DNA of 64,000 bases, taken from NCBI RefSeq assembly GCF_000478195.2, contig NZ_AUZM01000007.1, positions 1 through 64,000 on the forward strand, given 5' to 3'. Below the pieces are notes generated by a model, which ran no database searches, was not told the DNA's origin, and was given only the letters and a program-made list of their open reading frames with translations. The stretch is from Lyngbya aestuarii BL J (lineage in GTDB: Bacteria > Cyanobacteriota > Cyanobacteriia > Cyanobacteriales > Microcoleaceae). Below, one piece after another: positions 35,434 through 47,238 of this stretch (position 1 is its first letter; every line of letters starts with the position of its first letter). The position numbers and the translations under genes were made by a program.

Positions 35434-36765
35434 ATGGCAAATGAGGAACATCTTGCCCGACTCAAACAGGGAATTGAGATGTGGAATCAATGGAGAGAAA
35501 ACAATCCAGAAGTCAAGCCCGATTTACGCGGTGTCGATCTCAGTGGAGCAGATCTCAGTGGAGCTAATCTATGGATGGCTGATCTTTGGAGTGCTGATCT
35601 CTGGGGAGCCGACTTGCGAAGTACAGACTTGAGTGACAGCAACCTCTGGAGAGCCGACTTGCGAGGTACGAATCTACGAAACGCCGACTTGAGTGGGGCT
35701 TATTTATGGAGAGCCGACTTGCGTGGTGCAGATCTCACCGGAGTTAATCTGATGGGAACAAACCTGAGTGAAGCCGACTTGTGGGGCGCTAACTTACAGT
35801 CTGCTAACTTGAGTGAAGCCAACCTCTGGAAAGCTGATTTTAGAGGGGTTTACCTCAAAGACACAATTATCGATCTGCAAACCAGTTGGGAGCAAAAATG
35901 GAAACTTGTTTGGCAAATTCTTAACCAAGGCGTGGAAGGATTAGATCTCGGAGAAGCCGATCTCAGAGAAGCCAATTTATGGAAAGCCGATCTCAGTCGA
36001 GCAAATTTGATCAATGCGGATCTGTGGGGCGCTGATTTGCGAGAAGCCAATCTGATGGGGGCGGATCTGTGGGGAGTTAACCTCAGTGAAACCGATCTCA
36101 GCCAAGCCAATCTCACGGGGGCGGATCTGTGGAGAGCAAACCTACGCGGTGCAGATCTCAGCCATGCCGACTTTAGCCAAGCCAACCTCACCGAAGCAAA
36201 TCTACGAGCGACTCAAATTCTCGGAACAAATTTTGAGCGAGTCACCCTCACTGGTGCTTGTATTGAAGATTGGGATCTCAACAGTGCAACAAATCTAAAA
36301 TTGGTGACTTGTGAATATGTTTATTTAAAAGACGATCAACAAGAACGGTGTCCACGTGATCCCAATAAAACCTTTGGTGTGGGAGAATTTACCAAGCTCT
36401 TTCAACCCGCTTTAGAAACAGTTGATCTGACCTTTCCCACGGGAATTGATTGGCAAGCTTTTTATCTCTCATTTCAAGCTTTACAAGCTGAATATGGAGT
36501 AGAAAATTTATCCGTGATTGCTCTAGAAATGACTGGAGATCAAAAATTACTGATTCGATTTAAAGTGTCTCCTTTTATCGAAAAATTAGAATTCGATTGG
36601 GTTGCAAATCAATTCTATAATCAACAGCTTAATCTGATTGAAAAGCAGTATCAAGAGCAAAATCAACTCAAACAGAAGACGCGAGAACAAGACCTCAAGC
36701 AAAGTGCGACTCTACAAGAAATTATACGTTTACTTGCTGTTCAGCACGATCATATGAGTATATAG
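35434..36765 (+). CDS. Pentapeptide-repeat protein with C-terminal effector-like domain
   Basis: A 443-residue protein. Two arrays of A(D/N)Lxx pentapeptides (about 30-140 and 168-275) predict two right-handed beta-helix blocks, separated by a 25-residue helical insert (SWEQKWKLVWQILNQ). Residues 285-385 form a second domain (CEYVYLKDD, GEFTKLFQ, ETVDLTFPTGIDW) shared, to my recollection, with other cyanobacterial pentapeptide proteins. The end is a coiled coil (about 390-440). No signal peptide. Function is unknown; such proteins are often scaffolds. Confidence 0.85.
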   Translation: MANEEHLARLKQGIEMWNQWRENNPEVKPDLRGVDLSGADLSGANLWMADLWSADLWGADLRSTDLSDSNLWRADLRGTNLRNADLSGAYLWRADLRGADLTGVNLMGTNLSEADLWGANLQSANLSEANLWKADFRGVYLKDTIIDLQTSWEQKWKLVWQILNQGVEGLDLGEADLREANLWKADLSRANLINADLWGADLREANLMGADLWGVNLSETDLSQANLTGADLWRANLRGADLSHADFSQANLTEANLRATQILGTNFERVTLTGACIEDWDLNSATNLKLVTCEYVYLKDDQQERCPRDPNKTFGVGEFTKLFQPALETVDLTFPTGIDWQAFYLSFQALQAEYGVENLSVIALEMTGDQKLLIRFKVSPFIEKLEFDWVANQFYNQQLNLIEKQYQEQNQLKQKTREQDLKQSATLQEIIRLLAVQHDHMSI

Positions 36766-38741: not shown

Positions 38742-39107
38742 ATGGCTCACATTTTAGTCGTTGAAGACAATAATACTGAAGCAAAGATTTTAACTGAATG
38801 TTTACAAAGATCGGGTTTTCATGTGTTAAGCGTGACCACAGCAGAAGCGGCAAAAGCGATGGTTGCTAAACAAAGATTTGATGCAATTCTGATGGATGTT
38901 GTTTTACCCGGTCAAAGTGGTTTTGGGTTGTGTAGAGAACTCAAAAACCATGAACAAACCGCAGGAATTCCGATTATTATCTGCTCCAGCAAGTCCGAAA
39001 AATTTGATAAGAACTGGGGATTAAAACAAGGTGCATCTGCTTATATTTGTAAACCGATTAACACCGAAGAAATTCTCCAAACGCTTAAAGGATTAATCAA
39101 TAATTGA
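38742..39107 (+). CDS. pixH: CheY-like response regulator (PixH type)
   Basis: A 121-residue stand-alone receiver domain. Glu8-Asp9 (VVEDN) form the acidic pocket, Asp52 (LMDVVLPG) is the phosphorylation site and the conserved Lys lies in YICKPI. The Thr switch position is Ser (IICSS). In pix/pil systems this small CheY tunes the pilus motors opposite the PatA-type regulator. The CheW gene follows after 88 bases. Confidence 0.9.
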   Translation: MAHILVVEDNNTEAKILTECLQRSGFHVLSVTTAEAAKAMVAKQRFDAILMDVVLPGQSGFGLCRELKNHEQTAGIPIIICSSKSEKFDKNWGLKQGASAYICKPINTEEILQTLKGLINN

Positions 39108-39195: not shown

Positions 39196-39687
39196 ATGGC
39201 GACTCAATCTACTGTTCAAGAAACTGAACATTTTCTCAGTCTCTCTATTACCTCCAGTCTAAAAGCCATGTTGCCTACACAGCAACTCGCTGAAGTGATC
39301 AACATTGCCCCCCATGAAATTGTTCCCCTTCCTCAAATGTCATCGTCAGTCGTTGGGGTTTTTCCCTGGCAAGGAGAAGTGTTATGGGTGGTTGATCTCA
39401 GTTATTGGATGGGATTTGATCCCTTACTGACTGAAAATTTTTCCCAGTCAAATTGTAGCATACTAAAAGTAAAAAATCAAGGAAAATCTCTCGGAATCTT
39501 AATTTATAAAGTGGGAAAAATTATCTGTTGTCAACCTCAAAAAAATCAATCTTCCCCTGTCGATTTACCCGAATCAATTTTAGAGCATCCCACCCGCAAA
39601 AACTGTATCAAAGGAGCCTGGATCGATCCTCAAGGAGAACGATTTTTAATCTTAGATACCACCTCAATTGCCTCATTAGAAGATTGA
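39196..39687 (+). CDS. pixI: CheW-like adaptor (PixI type)
   Basis: A 163-residue single CheW domain (about 15-155): LAEVINIAPHEIVPLPQMSSSVVGVFPWQGEVLWVVDL is the family core (residues about 30-70). It would link the GAF receptor to the CheA kinase encoded nearby. Gene order CheY-CheW-MCP-CheA matches cyanobacterial pix/ptx operons. Confidence 0.9.
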   Translation: MATQSTVQETEHFLSLSITSSLKAMLPTQQLAEVINIAPHEIVPLPQMSSSVVGVFPWQGEVLWVVDLSYWMGFDPLLTENFSQSNCSILKVKNQGKSLGILIYKVGKIICCQPQKNQSSPVDLPESILEHPTRKNCIKGAWIDPQGERFLILDTTSIASLED

Positions 39688-39759: not shown

Positions 39760-42700
39760 ATGACAAGTTCACCTGTACATCCAACCAATTCTAATCACTT
39801 TCAAAATAACAACTCTAACTTCTCCTACTCAGGAAACCGATCATCATTCACCCCTCAATCAAACGGAATGGATAACTCAGCCATTATTCCCCTCGTGATC
39901 GATACAGAAGCCCAATCTGTTTACTCCCCCCAACAACGCACCGGATTAAAAGCCAAAACCACCGCACTCTCCAAAGAACTAACCACCTTACGCTCTAATA
40001 TCGAGTATCGGATTAACCAACTCCAAGGCTTAATCGAAAAAGAAGGTGCTGCTGCTGAACGCGCCGAACTGATTAACCTGATCACCTCACGGATGCGGGA
40101 ATCTCTCAGCACCGAAAGCATTTGTGAAACCGTCGTTGAAGATGCTCGTTTATCCCTACAATGCGATCGCATCATTGTTTACCGCTTCGATCAGTCGTGG
40201 AAAGGTACAGTTACCGCTGAATCCGTCGATCCGCAATGGCCTTCATCGATTGGTGCCGAGATTGCCGATCCCTGTTTTTCCGAACGCTATGCGGAGTTTT
40301 ATCAAAAAGGCAGAGTCAAAGCTATCCCCAACATCTACGAGGCTGGACTCACCGACTGTCATATCGCCCAACTCGAACCTTGGGCAATCAAAGCCAACCT
40401 GATTGCTCCGATTTTAATCAAAACCGCAGAAAACCCCACGGGGTATCTGTACGGCTTATTTATCGCCCATCAATGTAGTGAACCTCGGGTCTGGGTTGAA
40501 GCCGAAATCGAATTTTTCCGCCAACTGGCGACTCAAATTGGTTATGCGATTGACCAAGCGCTGCTGCTACATACTCAACAAGCCGCCACCCGACAGGCGC
40601 AACAAATCAACCATATTAACGCTCAAATCCGTAAATCCTTAGAAGTTGAGGATATTTTAGCCACAACCGTCGAAGAAACCCGAGCCGCTCTGGCCAGTGA
40701 TCGTGTACTGGTTTATGAATTCGATTCCAACTGGAAAGGAACCGTGATTGCAGAATCTGTTGATAGTCATTGGCCGACGGCATTAAGAGCCTCAATCGAT
40801 GATCCTTGCTTTGCTCAACGCTACATTCAGCCCTACTTACGGGGACGAGTCGCCGCCACTGAAAACATCTTTGAGGCGGGATTAACTGAATGTTATCTCA
40901 ATCAATTGGCACCTTTTGAGGTGAAAGCGAATCTGGTTGCTCCCATTCTCGTTAACCGTAAATTAATGGGATTGTTGATTGCTCACCAATGTTCTGGGCC
41001 GAGAGCCTGGAACGATCTGGAAATCGATCTGATGCGGAAAGTGGGGGTACAACTCGGATACGCCCTCGATCAAGCCTATCTCCTCGAAGAACAACAAGCC
41101 ACCGCCAAAAAAGCCCGACTCCTCAACGAAATCACCACTAAATTCCGCAACTCCCAAAACCCGGAAGAAGTTTTTGATCTGCTGGTTGAGGAAACCCGAG
41201 ATGCAGTCAAAGCCGATCGGGTAATCATTTATCAATTCACAGAAAATTGGGAAGGAAGTGTCATTGCAGAATCTGTCGATAGCCAATGGCCGGTGATCTT
41301 CGGGAAAAAAATTGCTGATCCTTGCTTTGCCAAAAGCTATGTTAAGCCCTATTTCAGAGGTCGAGTTACCACCGTAGAAGACTTTCAGGAGTCTGGACAC
41401 GCGGAATGTTATGCAGAAATGCTCGCGCCTTGGGCTGTCAAAGCCAATGTTGTCGCGCCGATTATTGCGGAAACCAAATTACATGGATTGTTGATTGTTC
41501 ATCAATGTTCAGGCCCTCGCAAGTGGAGCGAGTCGGATATTAACTTTACCAAACAACTAGGGATTCAAGTCGGTCTGGCTCTTGATCAAGCTTCTTTATT
41601 GCAAAAACAGCAAGATGCAGCCGAACAAGCCCGTCGTTTGAATACCATTAGTTCTCGGATTCGGGAATCTCTCAATTATCAAGATATCGTCAGTACGGCA
41701 GTTGAAGAAACGAAAGATACACTGGATGTTGATCGGGTGGTTGTGAATCAATTTAATGCGAACTGGACAGGAATGATTATTGCTGAATCGGTTAATCCAG
41801 AATTAACAAAAACCATTGGATTAGCGGTTGATGATTTTTGTTTGGCAGAAAACTACATCAAACCCTATTATCGAGGACGAGTCAAAGTTGTTGATGATGT
41901 TTATGCGGGTGAGTTGAGTGAATGTCAAGTCGGGCAGATGGAATCTTTTGAAGTCCGGGCGATGATTGTGGCGCCGATTATTGCCAAACAAAAACTACAC
42001 GGGTTGTTAATTATCCATCAATGTTCTCATCCCCGTCAATGGAAATCCCACGAAGTTGAATTGGTTCAACAGATTGCGATTCAAATTGGTTATGCACTTG
42101 ATCAGGCTTTCCTTCTCCAAGAACAACGCACCGCTACTCAACAAGCCCGACTCTTGAGTGATATTAGTTCTCGGATTCGGGAATCTCTTGATCCTGAACG
42201 TATTTTTCAAACGACTGTTGAAGAATCCCTAGAATTAATTAAAGCTGATCGGATTTTGATCTATCGCTTTAATGAAGAACAAAATGGTCAAACGGCTGTC
42301 AACGTCAGTTCTGAGGCAGTTAAACCCAATTGTTTGCAAATTTTGTCACAAGAAGACTCAGATTCAGAAGAAGAAAGTCATTCACTCCAACAAGTGGGTT
42401 TACCACTCGGGGCTGAACTGTTGAAGCGCTATCGCCAAAGTCGGATTCAGGTGATTGAAGATTTTGAAAAAGCAACGTTACCCAAAGTTTATCAAGATCA
42501 ACTTCACCAGTGGCAAGTTAAATCTTTGATTAGTGTGCCGATTTTTGTTAATCAAAGTTTGTATGGATTGTTAGAAGCTCATCAATGTTTGACAAAGGAT
42601 ACTTGGCCTGATTCCGAAATTGAAGGATTCCGACAAGTGGCTTTGCAACTGGGTTATGCCTTAGAACAGGCACAATTGCTGACTCAAATTCAACAAGCCA

Positions 42701-43743
42701 GTCAGGTTGCAGAAGTCGCCCGAGTTCAACAACAACAGGAAAAAGAACAGCTACAACAACAAATTGAAGGGTTTTTGGGTGAGATTGAAGAATCGTTTAA
42801 TGGAGATTTGACGGTGCGGGCGCGAGTCTCAGAAGGGGTGATGGGAACGGTTGCTGACTTTTTTAATGCCACGATTGAGAGTTTACAACGATTGGTGTTG
42901 CAAGTTCAGTCTGGGGCGAATGTGGTGAGTTCTACCGCCGCCGGGAGTGAACAGGATATTCAACAACTCTCTAATGATGCTCTGCGCCAAGCTGATGCGA
43001 TTAGTAATGCGCTTAGTCAAATTCAGATGATGGCGGATTCGATTCAAGGGGTTGCTCACAATGCTCAGTCGGCTCAAACCCAAGTGCGATCAGCTTCTGA
43101 GATTTTGCAAAAAGGTGATGCGGCGATGAATCAGACGGTTGAGAGCATTTTAGCGATTCAAAAGACAGTATACATTACGGCTCGCAAGGTGAAAAATTTG
43201 GGAGAAGCCAGCGCGAAAATTTCTCGGGTGGTGAATTTGATTAATGAATTTGCCAATCAAACTCACGTTTTAGCGTTAAATGCTTCGGTAGAAAGTACCC
43301 GTGCGAGTGAGGATGGTCAAGGTTTTGCTACAGTGGCGACTGAGGTGCGAACTTTGGCGGAACAATCGGCGAGTGCAACGCAAGAAATTGAGCAAATTGT
43401 TGAGGAAATTCAAGCGGAAACGAATGAAGTTGTACGGGCGATGAAAGTGGGTTTAAAACGGGTAATGACTGGAACTCATTTGGTTAAAGAAACTCGTCAG
43501 ACCTTGACAGAATTGGTAGAAGTGAGTCATTCGATTCGGAATTTAGTTGAACAAATTGCCGATTCTGCTACGGAACAAGCCCAAACTTCGGGTCAACTTT
43601 CTCACACGATTAAAGAAGTGGCTGGAATTGCTCGTTCGACCTCTGAACAGTCTTTACAAGTGGCTGATTCGTTTACTCAATTGTTGGAGGTTGCGGGTAA
43701 ATTACAAACTGGGGTTTCTCAGTTCAAAGTCGAAGAAAAATAG
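39760..43743 (+). CDS. pixJ: Soluble five-GAF methyl-accepting photoreceptor (PixJ/PtxD type)
   Basis: A 1327-residue receptor without any membrane helix. After a disordered start (1-60), five GAF domains follow (about 100-270, 280-442, 452-613, 623-785, 795-973). GAF1 has both cyanobacteriochrome cysteines, Cys172 in DPCF and Cys200 in CH, 28 residues apart as in DXCF receptors. GAF2 (Cys350, Cys378), GAF3 (Cys522, Cys550) and GAF4 (Cys694, Cys722) keep both cysteines but have Tyr or Gln after the second. GAF5 lacks both. A HAMP-like region and an MCP signalling domain (about 1100-1325, tip LINEFANQTHVLALNASVES) end the protein. It probably senses light and signals to CheA. Confidence 0.9.
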   Translation: MTSSPVHPTNSNHFQNNNSNFSYSGNRSSFTPQSNGMDNSAIIPLVIDTEAQSVYSPQQRTGLKAKTTALSKELTTLRSNIEYRINQLQGLIEKEGAAAERAELINLITSRMRESLSTESICETVVEDARLSLQCDRIIVYRFDQSWKGTVTAESVDPQWPSSIGAEIADPCFSERYAEFYQKGRVKAIPNIYEAGLTDCHIAQLEPWAIKANLIAPILIKTAENPTGYLYGLFIAHQCSEPRVWVEAEIEFFRQLATQIGYAIDQALLLHTQQAATRQAQQINHINAQIRKSLEVEDILATTVEETRAALASDRVLVYEFDSNWKGTVIAESVDSHWPTALRASIDDPCFAQRYIQPYLRGRVAATENIFEAGLTECYLNQLAPFEVKANLVAPILVNRKLMGLLIAHQCSGPRAWNDLEIDLMRKVGVQLGYALDQAYLLEEQQATAKKARLLNEITTKFRNSQNPEEVFDLLVEETRDAVKADRVIIYQFTENWEGSVIAESVDSQWPVIFGKKIADPCFAKSYVKPYFRGRVTTVEDFQESGHAECYAEMLAPWAVKANVVAPIIAETKLHGLLIVHQCSGPRKWSESDINFTKQLGIQVGLALDQASLLQKQQDAAEQARRLNTISSRIRESLNYQDIVSTAVEETKDTLDVDRVVVNQFNANWTGMIIAESVNPELTKTIGLAVDDFCLAENYIKPYYRGRVKVVDDVYAGELSECQVGQMESFEVRAMIVAPIIAKQKLHGLLIIHQCSHPRQWKSHEVELVQQIAIQIGYALDQAFLLQEQRTATQQARLLSDISSRIRESLDPERIFQTTVEESLELIKADRILIYRFNEEQNGQTAVNVSSEAVKPNCLQILSQEDSDSEEESHSLQQVGLPLGAELLKRYRQSRIQVIEDFEKATLPKVYQDQLHQWQVKSLISVPIFVNQSLYGLLEAHQCLTKDTWPDSEIEGFRQVALQLGYALEQAQLLTQIQQASQVAEVARVQQQQEKEQLQQQIEGFLGEIEESFNGDLTVRARVSEGVMGTVADFFNATIESLQRLVLQVQSGANVVSSTAAGSEQDIQQLSNDALRQADAISNALSQIQMMADSIQGVAHNAQSAQTQVRSASEILQKGDAAMNQTVESILAIQKTVYITARKVKNLGEASAKISRVVNLINEFANQTHVLALNASVESTRASEDGQGFATVATEVRTLAEQSASATQEIEQIVEEIQAETNEVVRAMKVGLKRVMTGTHLVKETRQTLTELVEVSHSIRNLVEQIADSATEQAQTSGQLSHTIKEVAGIARSTSEQSLQVADSFTQLLEVAGKLQTGVSQFKVEEK

Positions 43744-43860: not shown

Positions 43861-46800
43861 ATGTCAACTATTACTCAAGATCAGTCTTACGAATTTTTTG
43901 TTCAAGAATCTTTAGAGCTTTTACAAATTCTTGAACAGGGATTAATGACCCTTTCTCAAACCCATGATATTCAAAAACTTCATGGTTTGATGCGGGCGGC
44001 TCATTCTATCAAAGGGGGAGCGGCTTGTGTCGGGTTAATGGGAATTCAAGAAATTGCTCATCAACTTGAAAATGGAATTCGAGCTTTATATCCAGAAGAT
44101 ACTGTTTTTGATGTAGAATTAGAAGAATTACTGTTACAAGCTTTTGATGGTTTACGAGCGCCTATTCTTGAACAAATTGAAACGGGTGACTGCGATGAAG
44201 AAACGGCAATTTCTAAGGCTCAACCCACGTTTATGAAGCTGGAGGTTAAACTGGGGATACCGCTTGAAGAAGCAGTTGAACTTCCAGAGGTTCCGATTGA
44301 AACGGATATGACGCTGTTTCTATTTGACAAAGAAGTTCCGGCAAGTTTACATCGAATTCAAGAGGTTTTAGTATCTCCTCCTCCTAATCTTCAAGAAGAA
44401 CTTCATGATCAGTTTGAGGTATTAGCAACTCTCGGAAGTATGTTAGATTTACCGGGGTTTACAGCGATTGCTAAAACCACAATAGAAGCATTACAACTGC
44501 ATCCAGATTTATATTCAGAGATTACAAAAGCTGCATTAACTGATCTTTGGACAGGACAAAAAGCAGTTTTAGAAGGTGATCGCGTTGAAGGTGGAAAATC
44601 TAGTCCAGCATTAATTAAGTTTACCCAAAGTGAAGTTCAGGTTGAAGATATTTACGAAGAAGAGATTCAGGTTGAAGAAGTTCGCGAAGAAGATATTCAG
44701 GTTGAAAAAGTTCAGCCGTTTAGAAGTTCAGAGTTAAGCGAACTTTTATTAAAAGCTTTTGATAGTTTGCGAGTTCCGCTATTAGAACAAGTTGAATCCG
44801 GTGATTTACCGAATGAAGATGCGATCGCTGTTATTCAACCGATTTTACAACAACTTGAAACCCGACTCGGATGTTCTTTGGAAAATCCCTCACAATTGAT
44901 TGAACTTGATCTTTTTGAAGATCAGGTTGAGATCATCACTGATGATGAAGAACAAGCTAATTCTAATGGTTCTCACGTTGCTTCTAAATCCAATATTACC
45001 GAAGAATTACAAGCTCAAATTGAGATGTTCGCGACTTTGGCGAATATGTTAAATTTACCTCAGTTTAGTGAGATCGCTCAAGCCGCTTTAGAAGCTTTGG
45101 AAACTGATCCGCTTTCTCATCTAAAAATTGGTGTACTTACTTTAGCTGAGTTTTGGACAATTCAAAAAGCTATATTAACCAATAGAAATTCACCCGTTAT
45201 AGAAGAAGTTTTAGAAGAAACGCCAGAAGAAGTTCCAGAAGAAATTCTAGAAGAAGTTCCAGAAGAAGTTCCAGAAGAAGTTCCAGAAGAAGTTCCAGAA
45301 GAAATTCCAGAAGAAATTCCAGAAACTGTTCAAAAAGAAGTTTCTCCGACTCCGGTTGCTTCTGCTGTCTCCTCTCAAATGTCTTTAGGAGTCAGAGTCG
45401 ATGTCAACCGCTTAGATTTAATTAATAATTTAGTTGGGGAACTCGCCACCCAAGATAATAGTTTTCTCTTACATAATCAAAAATCTCAAACTGCTGTAGA
45501 ACGGTTAGAAATACTGAGGGATAAGTTACGAAAATCTTTAGTAAAAGCTCAGAATCATACAGATTTTTATCGTTCCAATAATACCTCAAATAAAACCGAA
45601 TATCGACAAGTCTCTAAATCGATTAATGTGTTAGTACAAAAGACTTTAGAAGAACTGGATCAAGTCAGAGAAGTTATTTATGACATGAAATGGTTAACCC
45701 TTCAAAGTCAGCAAATTATTAAAAAGCGACAACAAACTCTACACAAAGTTCAGAAGCATCTCACGGAAACTCGGATGTTACCTGTGGAATCACTGTTAAA
45801 TCGATTTCCACGGATGATTCGAGATTTATCTGTTCGCGAACAAAAACAAGTCAAACTTGAACTAACTGGTAAAAATACATTAGTTGATAAAGCCATTTTA
45901 GAGAAGTTATATGATCCATTAGTTCATTTAGTTAGAAATGCGTTTGATCATGGTATTGAGGATCTTGAACTTCGTCAGTCTAGAGGAAAATCTGTTGAGG
46001 GAAAAATTGAAATCAAAGCCTATCAGCAAGGAAACTATACTTATGTAGAAGTTAAAGATGATGGTCAGGGAATTAATGTAGAAAAAATTCGTTCTCAAGC
46101 CATTGCTAAAGGAATTATTTCTAGTCAAGAAGCCGAACGACTTTCTAAAAATCAGATCTATGAATTTTTGTTTTATCCTGATTTTTCAACTCGGGATAAA
46201 GTGAGTGATTTATCAGGTCGAGGTGTGGGTTTAGAAGCCGTTCGCAATCAAATCGAAGCTTTAAAAGGATTTATTAGTATCCAATCAGAATTAGGTAAAG
46301 GAACAACATTTACTCTCCGTTTACCCTGGACATTAACGATTACCAAGTTATTGGTTTTTGAAGTTGGAGAAAGTTTGTTTGCGATTCCTTTAGATACTTT
46401 GGCTGGAATTATTTCTGCTTCTTCTAAAGAAATTACCACCGATAATCAACGAGAATTTTACAACTGGTATGGACAAAAAATACCTTTAGTTCAGCCTGTT
46501 TTATTAGAGTACAATTATCCTCGCGAGATTAATAACTTACAAAATGGTCATCATCTCATCTCTCAAAAAGTCGAAAGAAAAATAGATAATAAAAGATCAA
46601 TAATACTTTTGATTTCACAAGGATTAGAAACCGTTTGTCTAAAAATAGATCAAGTTTTGATGGAACAGAACCTCACAATCAAACCCTTTGGAAAAATATT
46701 TTCAGCACCCTCTTACTTTTATGGTTGTACTATTTTAGGAGATGGTCGTTTAGTCCCTGTCATTGATAGTCCAGAGTTATTAAACTATTGGAACCAACAG

Positions 46801-47238
46801 CAATCTTCTGTCAGTCCGCTTCAAATAGTACCCCGTCAAAAACAATCTAATTCTCCCAAAAAATCAACAGTGTTAGTGATTGATGACTCCATTACCACTC
46901 GTCAATCTTTGTGTACAATTTTGCAAAAAGAAGGATATAAGGTTCTACAAGCAAACAACGGAAAAGAAGGATTAATTCAACTCCAACAATACAGTAATGT
47001 TGAGATAGTTATTTGTGATTTAGAAATGCCAGAAATGAATGGATTTGAGTTTTTAAGTCACTGTCGTCGTCGATTTTCAACAGATGTACTTCCTGTATTG
47101 ATTCTCACTTCTCGGAATAATGATCGTCATCGTCAACTCGCTAAACAACTGGGTTCAAATGACTATATTACTAAACCTTGGAATGAGAAAGAATTAATAA
47201 TGATTTTGCAGCAACATTTGGAAATGGGTCAAGTGTAA
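43861..47238 (+). CDS. pixL: Hybrid CheA histidine kinase (PixL type)
   Basis: A 1125-residue kinase. An HPt domain carries His48 (AAHSIKGGAA). A second, HPt-like helical block recurs at about 285-345 without an HSIKG motif. A Glu-rich spacer with EVPE repeats (about 450-490) precedes the dimerisation region, the ATPase domain (HLVRNAFDHGIED, DDGQGI, SGRGVGLEAV, GKGTTFTLRLP), a CheW domain (about 815-985) and a receiver domain with Asp1053 (ICDLEMPEMNG). It completes the operon: receptor, adaptor, kinase and two regulators. Confidence 0.92.
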   Translation: MSTITQDQSYEFFVQESLELLQILEQGLMTLSQTHDIQKLHGLMRAAHSIKGGAACVGLMGIQEIAHQLENGIRALYPEDTVFDVELEELLLQAFDGLRAPILEQIETGDCDEETAISKAQPTFMKLEVKLGIPLEEAVELPEVPIETDMTLFLFDKEVPASLHRIQEVLVSPPPNLQEELHDQFEVLATLGSMLDLPGFTAIAKTTIEALQLHPDLYSEITKAALTDLWTGQKAVLEGDRVEGGKSSPALIKFTQSEVQVEDIYEEEIQVEEVREEDIQVEKVQPFRSSELSELLLKAFDSLRVPLLEQVESGDLPNEDAIAVIQPILQQLETRLGCSLENPSQLIELDLFEDQVEIITDDEEQANSNGSHVASKSNITEELQAQIEMFATLANMLNLPQFSEIAQAALEALETDPLSHLKIGVLTLAEFWTIQKAILTNRNSPVIEEVLEETPEEVPEEILEEVPEEVPEEVPEEVPEEIPEEIPETVQKEVSPTPVASAVSSQMSLGVRVDVNRLDLINNLVGELATQDNSFLLHNQKSQTAVERLEILRDKLRKSLVKAQNHTDFYRSNNTSNKTEYRQVSKSINVLVQKTLEELDQVREVIYDMKWLTLQSQQIIKKRQQTLHKVQKHLTETRMLPVESLLNRFPRMIRDLSVREQKQVKLELTGKNTLVDKAILEKLYDPLVHLVRNAFDHGIEDLELRQSRGKSVEGKIEIKAYQQGNYTYVEVKDDGQGINVEKIRSQAIAKGIISSQEAERLSKNQIYEFLFYPDFSTRDKVSDLSGRGVGLEAVRNQIEALKGFISIQSELGKGTTFTLRLPWTLTITKLLVFEVGESLFAIPLDTLAGIISASSKEITTDNQREFYNWYGQKIPLVQPVLLEYNYPREINNLQNGHHLISQKVERKIDNKRSIILLISQGLETVCLKIDQVLMEQNLTIKPFGKIFSAPSYFYGCTILGDGRLVPVIDSPELLNYWNQQQSSVSPLQIVPRQKQSNSPKKSTVLVIDDSITTRQSLCTILQKEGYKVLQANNGKEGLIQLQQYSNVEIVICDLEMPEMNGFEFLSHCRRRFSTDVLPVLILTSRNNDRHRQLAKQLGSNDYITKPWNEKELIMILQQHLEMGQV
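45201..45330 (+). repeat. 12-base coding microsatellite (EVPE repeat) in the CheA gene
   Basis: About ten units of GAAGTTCCAGAA (some with ATT or ACG in place of GTT) encode E-(V/I)-P-E. The neighbouring copies are identical at DNA level, so unit number could change by slippage without shifting the frame. Confidence 0.88.

Follow-up and report, generated by a model that had tools for sequence, protein, structure and literature searches.

A PixJ-type receptor with five GAF domains, several of them candidate bilin binders, in a pix operon of Lyngbya aestuarii BL J

The window analysed here is a stretch of 64,000 nucleotides (positions 1 to 64,000 of contig NZ_AUZM01000007.1, assembly GCF_000478195.2) from the cyanobacterium Lyngbya aestuarii BL J, and the gene under study encodes a receptor of 1327 residues in which five GAF domains precede an MCP signalling domain. 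The protein is probably the PixJ of a pixGHIJL operon, in which bilin would be bound by GAF1, GAF2 and GAF3, with GAF4 a less certain case, GAF5 would act as a relay, and the ancestor would have carried a pair of chromophore-site cysteines in each of its five GAFs (dual-Cys GAFs).

Domains, cysteines and phylogenetic place

The receptor gene and its domains are as follows.

39760..43743, + strand: pixJ-type gene, five GAF domains and MCP, 1327 residues (open reading frame, Pfam, hydropathy)
40069..40569, + strand: GAF1, DPCF (C172) and CH (C200), a DXCF GAF, apparently intact, carrying a 6-residue insert (TePixJ 3vv4, E 1.6e-40)
40603..41085, + strand: GAF2, DPCF (C350) and CY (C378) (TePixJ 3vv4, E 1.9e-44, query 40594-41084)
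41119..41601, + strand: GAF3, DPCF (C522) and CY (C550), probably intact (TePixJ 3vv4, E 1.9e-33)
41635..42117, + strand: GAF4, DFCL (C694) and CQ (C722), altered site in a retained fold (alignment, AlphaFold)
42151..42681, + strand: GAF5, both cysteines lost (alignment, AlphaFold)
43084..43629, + strand: MCP signalling domain (PF00015, residues 1109-1290)

Pfam recognises five stretches of PF01590, the GAF family (E 2.7e-89 for the whole protein), followed by PF00015, so that the MCP domain stands C-terminal to the GAFs as in a PixJ. The two cysteines lie 28 residues apart in each of GAF1, GAF2, GAF3 and GAF4, and the residue after the second is His in GAF1, Tyr in GAF2 and GAF3, and Gln in GAF4. 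The DXCF motif itself, as DPCF placed 28 residues ahead of the second cysteine, is found in GAF1 to GAF3; GAF4 reads DFCL, with both cysteines present and the Phe gone. Pro and Val occupy the two cysteine sites of GAF5, which by alignment exceeds the usual length of 161 residues by 16, with 12 of these in the DXCF region. From GAF2 to GAF5 the domains begin at a constant step of 172 residues, both in the window receptor and in a paralog on contig C18 of the same genome, and the same step runs throughout five Okeania proteins, as would be expected of rigid helical linkers relaying to the MCP domain. Nine NCBIfam families listed for the window protein were discarded, since all of their scores fell far below the cut-offs.

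No membrane helix is evident in the receptor, its highest 19-residue Kyte-Doolittle mean being 1.52, in the core of GAF4; three relatives that combine two GAFs with an MCP domain have maxima of 2.17-3.35. Segments like the transmembrane segments ahead of the GAFs in PixJ1 are thus lacking. Because relatives from the same family (L002, L003 and L008) likewise lack a transmembrane segment (maxima 1.59-1.87), such segments were not taken as defining a PixJ. The open reading frame, Pfam matches, alignment and hydropathy bear out the description in an earlier note made from the sequence alone, namely five GAFs, four cysteine pairs at 28 residues with Tyr, Tyr and Gln after the second cysteine of GAF2, GAF3 and GAF4, neither cysteine in GAF5, and no membrane helices.

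The kind of GAF was examined in a tree of 110 GAF domains, with TePixJ, NpR6012g4 and AnPixJg2_BV4 as references. All five window GAFs fall with TePixJ, a known DXCF GAF, in a clade supported at 99/91, whose other members include the GAFs of three MCP proteins with two GAFs each and all five from a Gloeomargarita protein; without one of the Gloeomargarita GAFs the support is 96/85. The red/green references NpR6012g4 and AnPixJg2_BV4 are placed outside this clade. Clustering with non-chromophore GAFs, named in the earlier note as grounds for dropping its proposal, was not seen in this tree, in which the first GAFs of the Synechocystis and Thermosynechococcus PixJ proteins are not represented. 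Window GAF1, GAF2, GAF3 and GAF5 group with their positional counterparts in family relatives; GAF4 is placed among GAF3 and GAF4 rows without a clear partner. The best solved sequence match is TePixJ for GAF1, GAF2 and GAF3, with GAF2 the closest of the five domains, and 6oap, a dual sensor histidine kinase, for GAF4 and GAF5. The cysteine pairs are, as judged from the sequences, more than chance, given that each of the five domains matches solved bilin GAFs and that relatives conserve the pairs at corresponding positions.

Intact and altered GAF domains

To score the state of each domain, a reference set of 51 dual-Cys GAFs was drawn from the clade, with the C18 rows and GAF2 of a third paralog, on contig C6, among them but no window rows; the 43 alignment columns conserved across 85% or more of this set served as the conserved positions. 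Window GAF1 to GAF5 retain 39, 41, 40, 37 and 33 of the 43 positions, the C18 paralog 42, 42, 41, 43 and 42, and the C6 paralog 27, 40, 24, 31 and 24. An independent score, over 39 columns from 45 rows with none from this genome, places the window domains in the same order (35, 38, 36, 33 and 30 of 39), with 38, 38, 36, 39 and 38 for the C18 paralog and 25, 35, 22, 29 and 23 for the C6 paralog. TePixJ attains 34 of 43 and, with the independent set, 32 of 39.

From these counts GAF1, GAF2 and GAF3, and so at least three domains, look intact. One alternative worded in the earlier note, a single active domain accompanied by decaying copies, sits poorly with the 35, 38 and 36 of 39 conserved positions in these three, and it fits the C6 paralog, with one pair in five, much better than the window receptor. 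Its other alternative, several chromophores with different photocycles, runs against the placement of all five GAFs in the TePixJ clade and the single match to the bilin reductase family in the genome. That interpretation does hold in describing a PixJ-like receptor that is soluble, has several GAFs and offers more than a single plausible bilin domain; neither alternative as worded fits.

The residue after the second cysteine, which the earlier note had read as a sign of gradation among the domains, proved a poor guide. By alignment 74 of the 82 GAFs in the clade carry both cysteines, and the following residue in these 74 is His in 59, Tyr in 13 and Gln in 2. Tyr stands in the GAF2 domains of two relatives, which keep every conserved position (L010 and L012, 43/43), and in GAF2 of the C18 paralog (L026, 42/43), and its frequency without four close relatives is 12/55. 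The idea that Tyr marks decay was therefore rejected; with Tyr as a normal variant of the TePixJ clade, a tempting motif rule is corrected. Five of the 13 Tyr cases are GAF4 domains of a Trichodesmium group, whose 8-residue insert takes them off the 28-residue spacing, so that they count as dual-Cys through the alignment. Gln is rare and occurs in weaker domains, namely window GAF4 and GAF3 of a Trichodesmium erythraeum locus (L011).

In TePixJ numbering, window GAF4 carries the changes Y463N, D466N, F495L, A517G, L527M and N535M. Its AlphaFold model (predicted local distance difference test score, pLDDT, 87.9) finds bilin GAFs as its best PDB matches, and the model of GAF5, at pLDDT 83.1 overall but under 50 in residues 69-82, still has a bilin-GAF fold. 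Bilin binding by GAF4 is doubtful, and GAF5 is presumed to be a non-chromophore spacer or relay.

Operon, paralogs and family history

The receptor gene stands among four further genes on the same strand, for which the names follow the tax1 description in PMC5812497.

37164..38402, + strand: PixG-type response regulator, DUF4388 and receiver, PatA-like, 412 residues (open reading frame, Pfam)
38742..39107, + strand: PixH-type CheY-like receiver, 121 residues (open reading frame, Pfam)
39196..39687, + strand: PixI-type CheW, 163 residues (open reading frame, Pfam)
43861..47238, + strand: PixL-type CheA with Hpt, ATPase, CheW and receiver, 1125 residues (open reading frame, Pfam)

These CheW, CheA, PatA-like and CheY-like genes make up a pixGHIJL (tax1-like) operon, and on the strength of gene content and domain order the window gene is the predicted photoreceptor of this phototaxis operon. 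Similar gene sizes and order surround the five-GAF gene of Okeania sp. SIO2B3 and that of Oscillatoriales RM2_1_1, and the operon products of relatives' loci share 33-72% identity with those of the window. PixG is 55% identical to its C18 copy and 51% to the Okeania copy, PixH 66% and 72%, and PixL 50% and 48%, respectively; PixI is 33-38% identical to the C18, Okeania and RM2_1_1 copies. The window PixL is longer (1125 residues, versus 960 in the C18 and Okeania SIO2B3 loci) and contains a low-complexity stretch of Glu-Val-Pro repeats. A pentapeptide-repeat protein (PF00805) is encoded directly upstream of the operon, at 35434-36765.

The genome holds three five-GAF receptors, on contigs C7 (the window), C18 and C6, with cysteine pairs in 4, 5 and 1 of their five GAFs. 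The C18 paralog (L026) lies in a second pix operon (L030, 3798-14918), which has two PatA-like regulators versus one in the window operon. The C6 paralog (L029, C6:129880-133818) is an orphan near rbcL, rbcX and rbcS. A stop codon breaking the C6 copy was considered and rejected, as the TAA precedes a later ATG from which a frame of 1296 residues is open. Composition likewise gives no support to a chimeric bin as the source of the three paralogs: their contigs are alike (tetranucleotide distance 83-135, versus at least 256 for six loci of relatives), though the bin, of 99.96% listed completeness, is also listed with 3.26% contamination. The genome also has a very large GAF repertoire, with 108 matches.

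Between the window and C18 receptors, identity is 74.5% for GAF1 and GAF2, 68% for GAF3, 55% for GAF4, 57% for GAF5 and 77% for the MCP domain. In the C6 paralog GAF2 alone keeps both cysteines, and it is 74% identical to the C18 copy versus 42-47% for the other four GAFs. This pattern speaks for an unlikely reading of the window receptor, in which only one or two of its GAFs (for example GAF1 or GAF2) are photoactive and the others are structural, retaining their cysteines by inertia. The long branch of window GAF4 (0.30-0.77 by bootstrap, longer than those of GAF2, 0.11-0.29, and MCP, 0.08-0.20) would also suit it, as would PixJ1 of Synechocystis, in which bilin is bound by the second of two GAFs only according to the account in PMC5812497. 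Against it, GAF3 has both cysteines and 40 of the 43 conserved positions; synonymous sites are close to saturation between the window and C18 copies, which implies ample time for unused cysteines to have been lost, as they were in GAF5.

That the window gene is a decaying, functionless duplicate, covered by the intact C18 operon, is very improbable. Its GAF5 site is lost and its branches are longer than those of C18 in all six domains, even if the bootstrap ratio excludes 1 for GAF1 and GAF4 only. Opposed to this stand the open frame of 1327 residues, the retention of the whole five-gene operon, an MCP domain still close to the C18 copy, and a ratio of nonsynonymous to synonymous substitution (dN/dS) of 0.10-0.31 across the six domains, well below 1, which is nevertheless unreliable because the synonymous distance (dS) between the two copies, at 1.2-2.5, is near saturation.

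The preferred reading, of a working receptor with several bilin-binding GAFs derived from a fully paired ancestor, draws on the wider family. Cysteine pairs occur in all five GAFs of the C18 paralog and of RM2_1_1, Okeania SIO2B3, SIO1I7, SIO3B5 and SIO2C9, and O. hirsuta. Since six relatives keep all five pairs, five dual-Cys GAFs are likely ancestral, with the window copy having lost one pair. A second group comprises T. erythraeum, Hydrocoleum CS-953, Microcoleaceae MO_207.B10 and the Okeania-titled metagenome-assembled genomes SIO3I5 and SIO2F4; here both cysteines are present in GAF1 of 5/5 proteins, GAF5 of 5/5, GAF2 of 4/5 and GAF3 of 3/5. GAF4 of this Trichodesmium/Hydrocoleum group (L008-L012) reads SKCF or AKCF with CY, with the 8-residue insert between the cysteines. 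GAF5 of L002-L012 and of the C18 paralog carries VPCF, VTCF, IPCF or LACF with CH, hence both cysteines without the Asp of DXCF. A family ancestor with five dual-Cys GAFs, followed by losses at different positions, is the likely history from these alignments. In the full-length tree the three paralogs and RM2_1_1 form a group (92/93), from which the Okeania and Trichodesmium groups are separate (100/99). The receptor would have been duplicated in this lineage, with five pairs then retained in C18, four in the window copy, where GAF4 would be drifting, and only that of GAF2 in C6.

Several observations weigh against parts of this reading. The relatives do not all keep five pairs, as GAF4 is altered in 5/5 proteins of the Trichodesmium group and two of those five have lost GAF3. 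The trees differ on the order of duplication, with the window (L001) and C6 (L029) copies as sisters in the full-length tree (94/95), C6 joined to C18 (L026) in a tree of GAF2 and MCP (48%), and a different arrangement again in the MCP tree. The drift of window GAF4 is less distinct than its branch suggests, since the bootstrap range overlaps those of GAF1, GAF3 and GAF5, and the window/C18 branch ratio for GAF4 (1.8-9.6) overlaps the ratios of other domains. Bilin-binding TePixJ scores below window GAF4, so the conservation score carries kinship as well as function. Finally, GAF5 retains the bilin-GAF fold in its model, and as the models of GAF4 and GAF5 both match bilin GAFs, fold alone cannot tell which of them binds bilin.

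Proposed working and known systems

DXCF receptors typically take up phycocyanobilin and then isomerise it (PMC11284453). In the window receptor the second cysteine of GAF1, GAF2, GAF3 and, with less certainty, GAF4 would be the attachment point for phycocyanobilin, which these domains would convert to phycoviolobilin by isomerisation; a reversible bond between the bilin and the cysteine of DXCF would give a photocycle of the blue/green type, like that of TePixJ. The changes driven by light would be relayed by the helical linkers to the MCP hairpin and there control how active PixL is; PixL would phosphorylate PixG and PixH and thereby steer type IV pili, as in the tax1 system outlined in PMC5812497. 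GAF5, its chromophore site lost, would probably serve as a relay. That soluble receptors of this kind form cytoplasmic arrays is a guess.

A rather improbable variant holds that the four dual-Cys GAFs differ in chromophore or tuning and jointly report several colours, like PtxD of Nostoc punctiforme, a receptor with seven GAFs that converts between six colours (PMC5812497). The residue after the second cysteine does vary among the window GAFs, and GAF4 has L527M at a position near the D-ring described in PMC7504144 as a colour-tuning site. However, the five GAFs share one clade with TePixJ, Tyr after the cysteine is found in GAFs that keep 42-43 of the 43 positions (GAF2 of L010, L012 and L026), and the bilin reductase family has one match in a genome of 99.96% listed completeness, which suggests a single precursor, phycocyanobilin. 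With one clade and one bilin reductase match, one precursor and a similar blue/green-type photocycle in each domain is the better guess.

Among solved structures, the TePixJ GAF (3vv4, 4fof, 4glq, 2m7u and 6p58) resembles window GAF1 to GAF3 in its DPCF, its second cysteine and its origin in an MCP-type receptor; it has His after the second cysteine, unlike window GAF2 to GAF4, and is compared here as a GAF domain. Synechococcus elongatus PixJ, a proposed phototaxis photoreceptor, also has five GAFs by its description in PMC8794177, and it is likened to the window receptor by number of GAFs, not by cysteine content. PtxD (NpF2164) shares a multi-GAF architecture, an MCP output and a che-like gene cluster, and is needed for positive phototaxis (PMC5812497). 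Of its seven GAFs at least six bind bilin, in two of them with a link to a second cysteine, for the six colours noted above (PMC5812497), whereas the window GAFs all belong to one DXCF clade and four are dual-Cys. PixJ1/TaxD1 of Synechocystis likewise belongs to an operon, tax1, with CheW, CheA, PatA-like and CheY-like partners, but is described as having two membrane segments and two GAFs, with bilin on the second only (PMC5812497).

Multi-GAF PixJ receptors are thus already known, and the main value of the present case lies in the natural series of three paralogs with five, four and one pairs in one genome. No title on this five-GAF family came up in a literature search; as most papers behind subscription lie outside the coverage of that search, this counts as weak evidence. 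Full pix operons hold two of the three paralogs, and a single clade supplies all of their GAFs, so that the reason why phototaxis receptors stack several GAFs becomes testable with natural variants: whether extra photosensors of the same type alter sensitivity, dynamic range or nothing. A speculative answer, to which little likelihood is attached, is that tandem GAFs of the same colour work as an intensity counter, in which the number photoconverted along the helical spine, not the colour, would set the MCP output; the three paralogs would then differ by degrees in their range and feed into at least two pix pathways.

Across the cyanobacterial class, at least 17 of 291 genomes, this one included, contain a match at E 1e-150 or better; since two candidates were scored per genome, the counts are a lower bound. 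Sixteen further proteins from 15 genomes contain 68 GAFs, of which 14 have both cysteines, 37 the second only and 17 lack the second, and none of the 16 proteins has more than three dual-Cys GAFs. The Gloeomargarita protein has five dual-Cys GAFs and a possible membrane segment (hydropathy 1.98). Two other proteins show further arrangements: a five-GAF, PixJ-like protein of 1605 residues (L049, G279) has the second cysteine and His in all five GAFs and the DXCF cysteine in none, and a six-GAF protein (L062, G287) is dual-Cys only in its last GAF, where APCF..CH resembles GAF5 of the five-GAF family.

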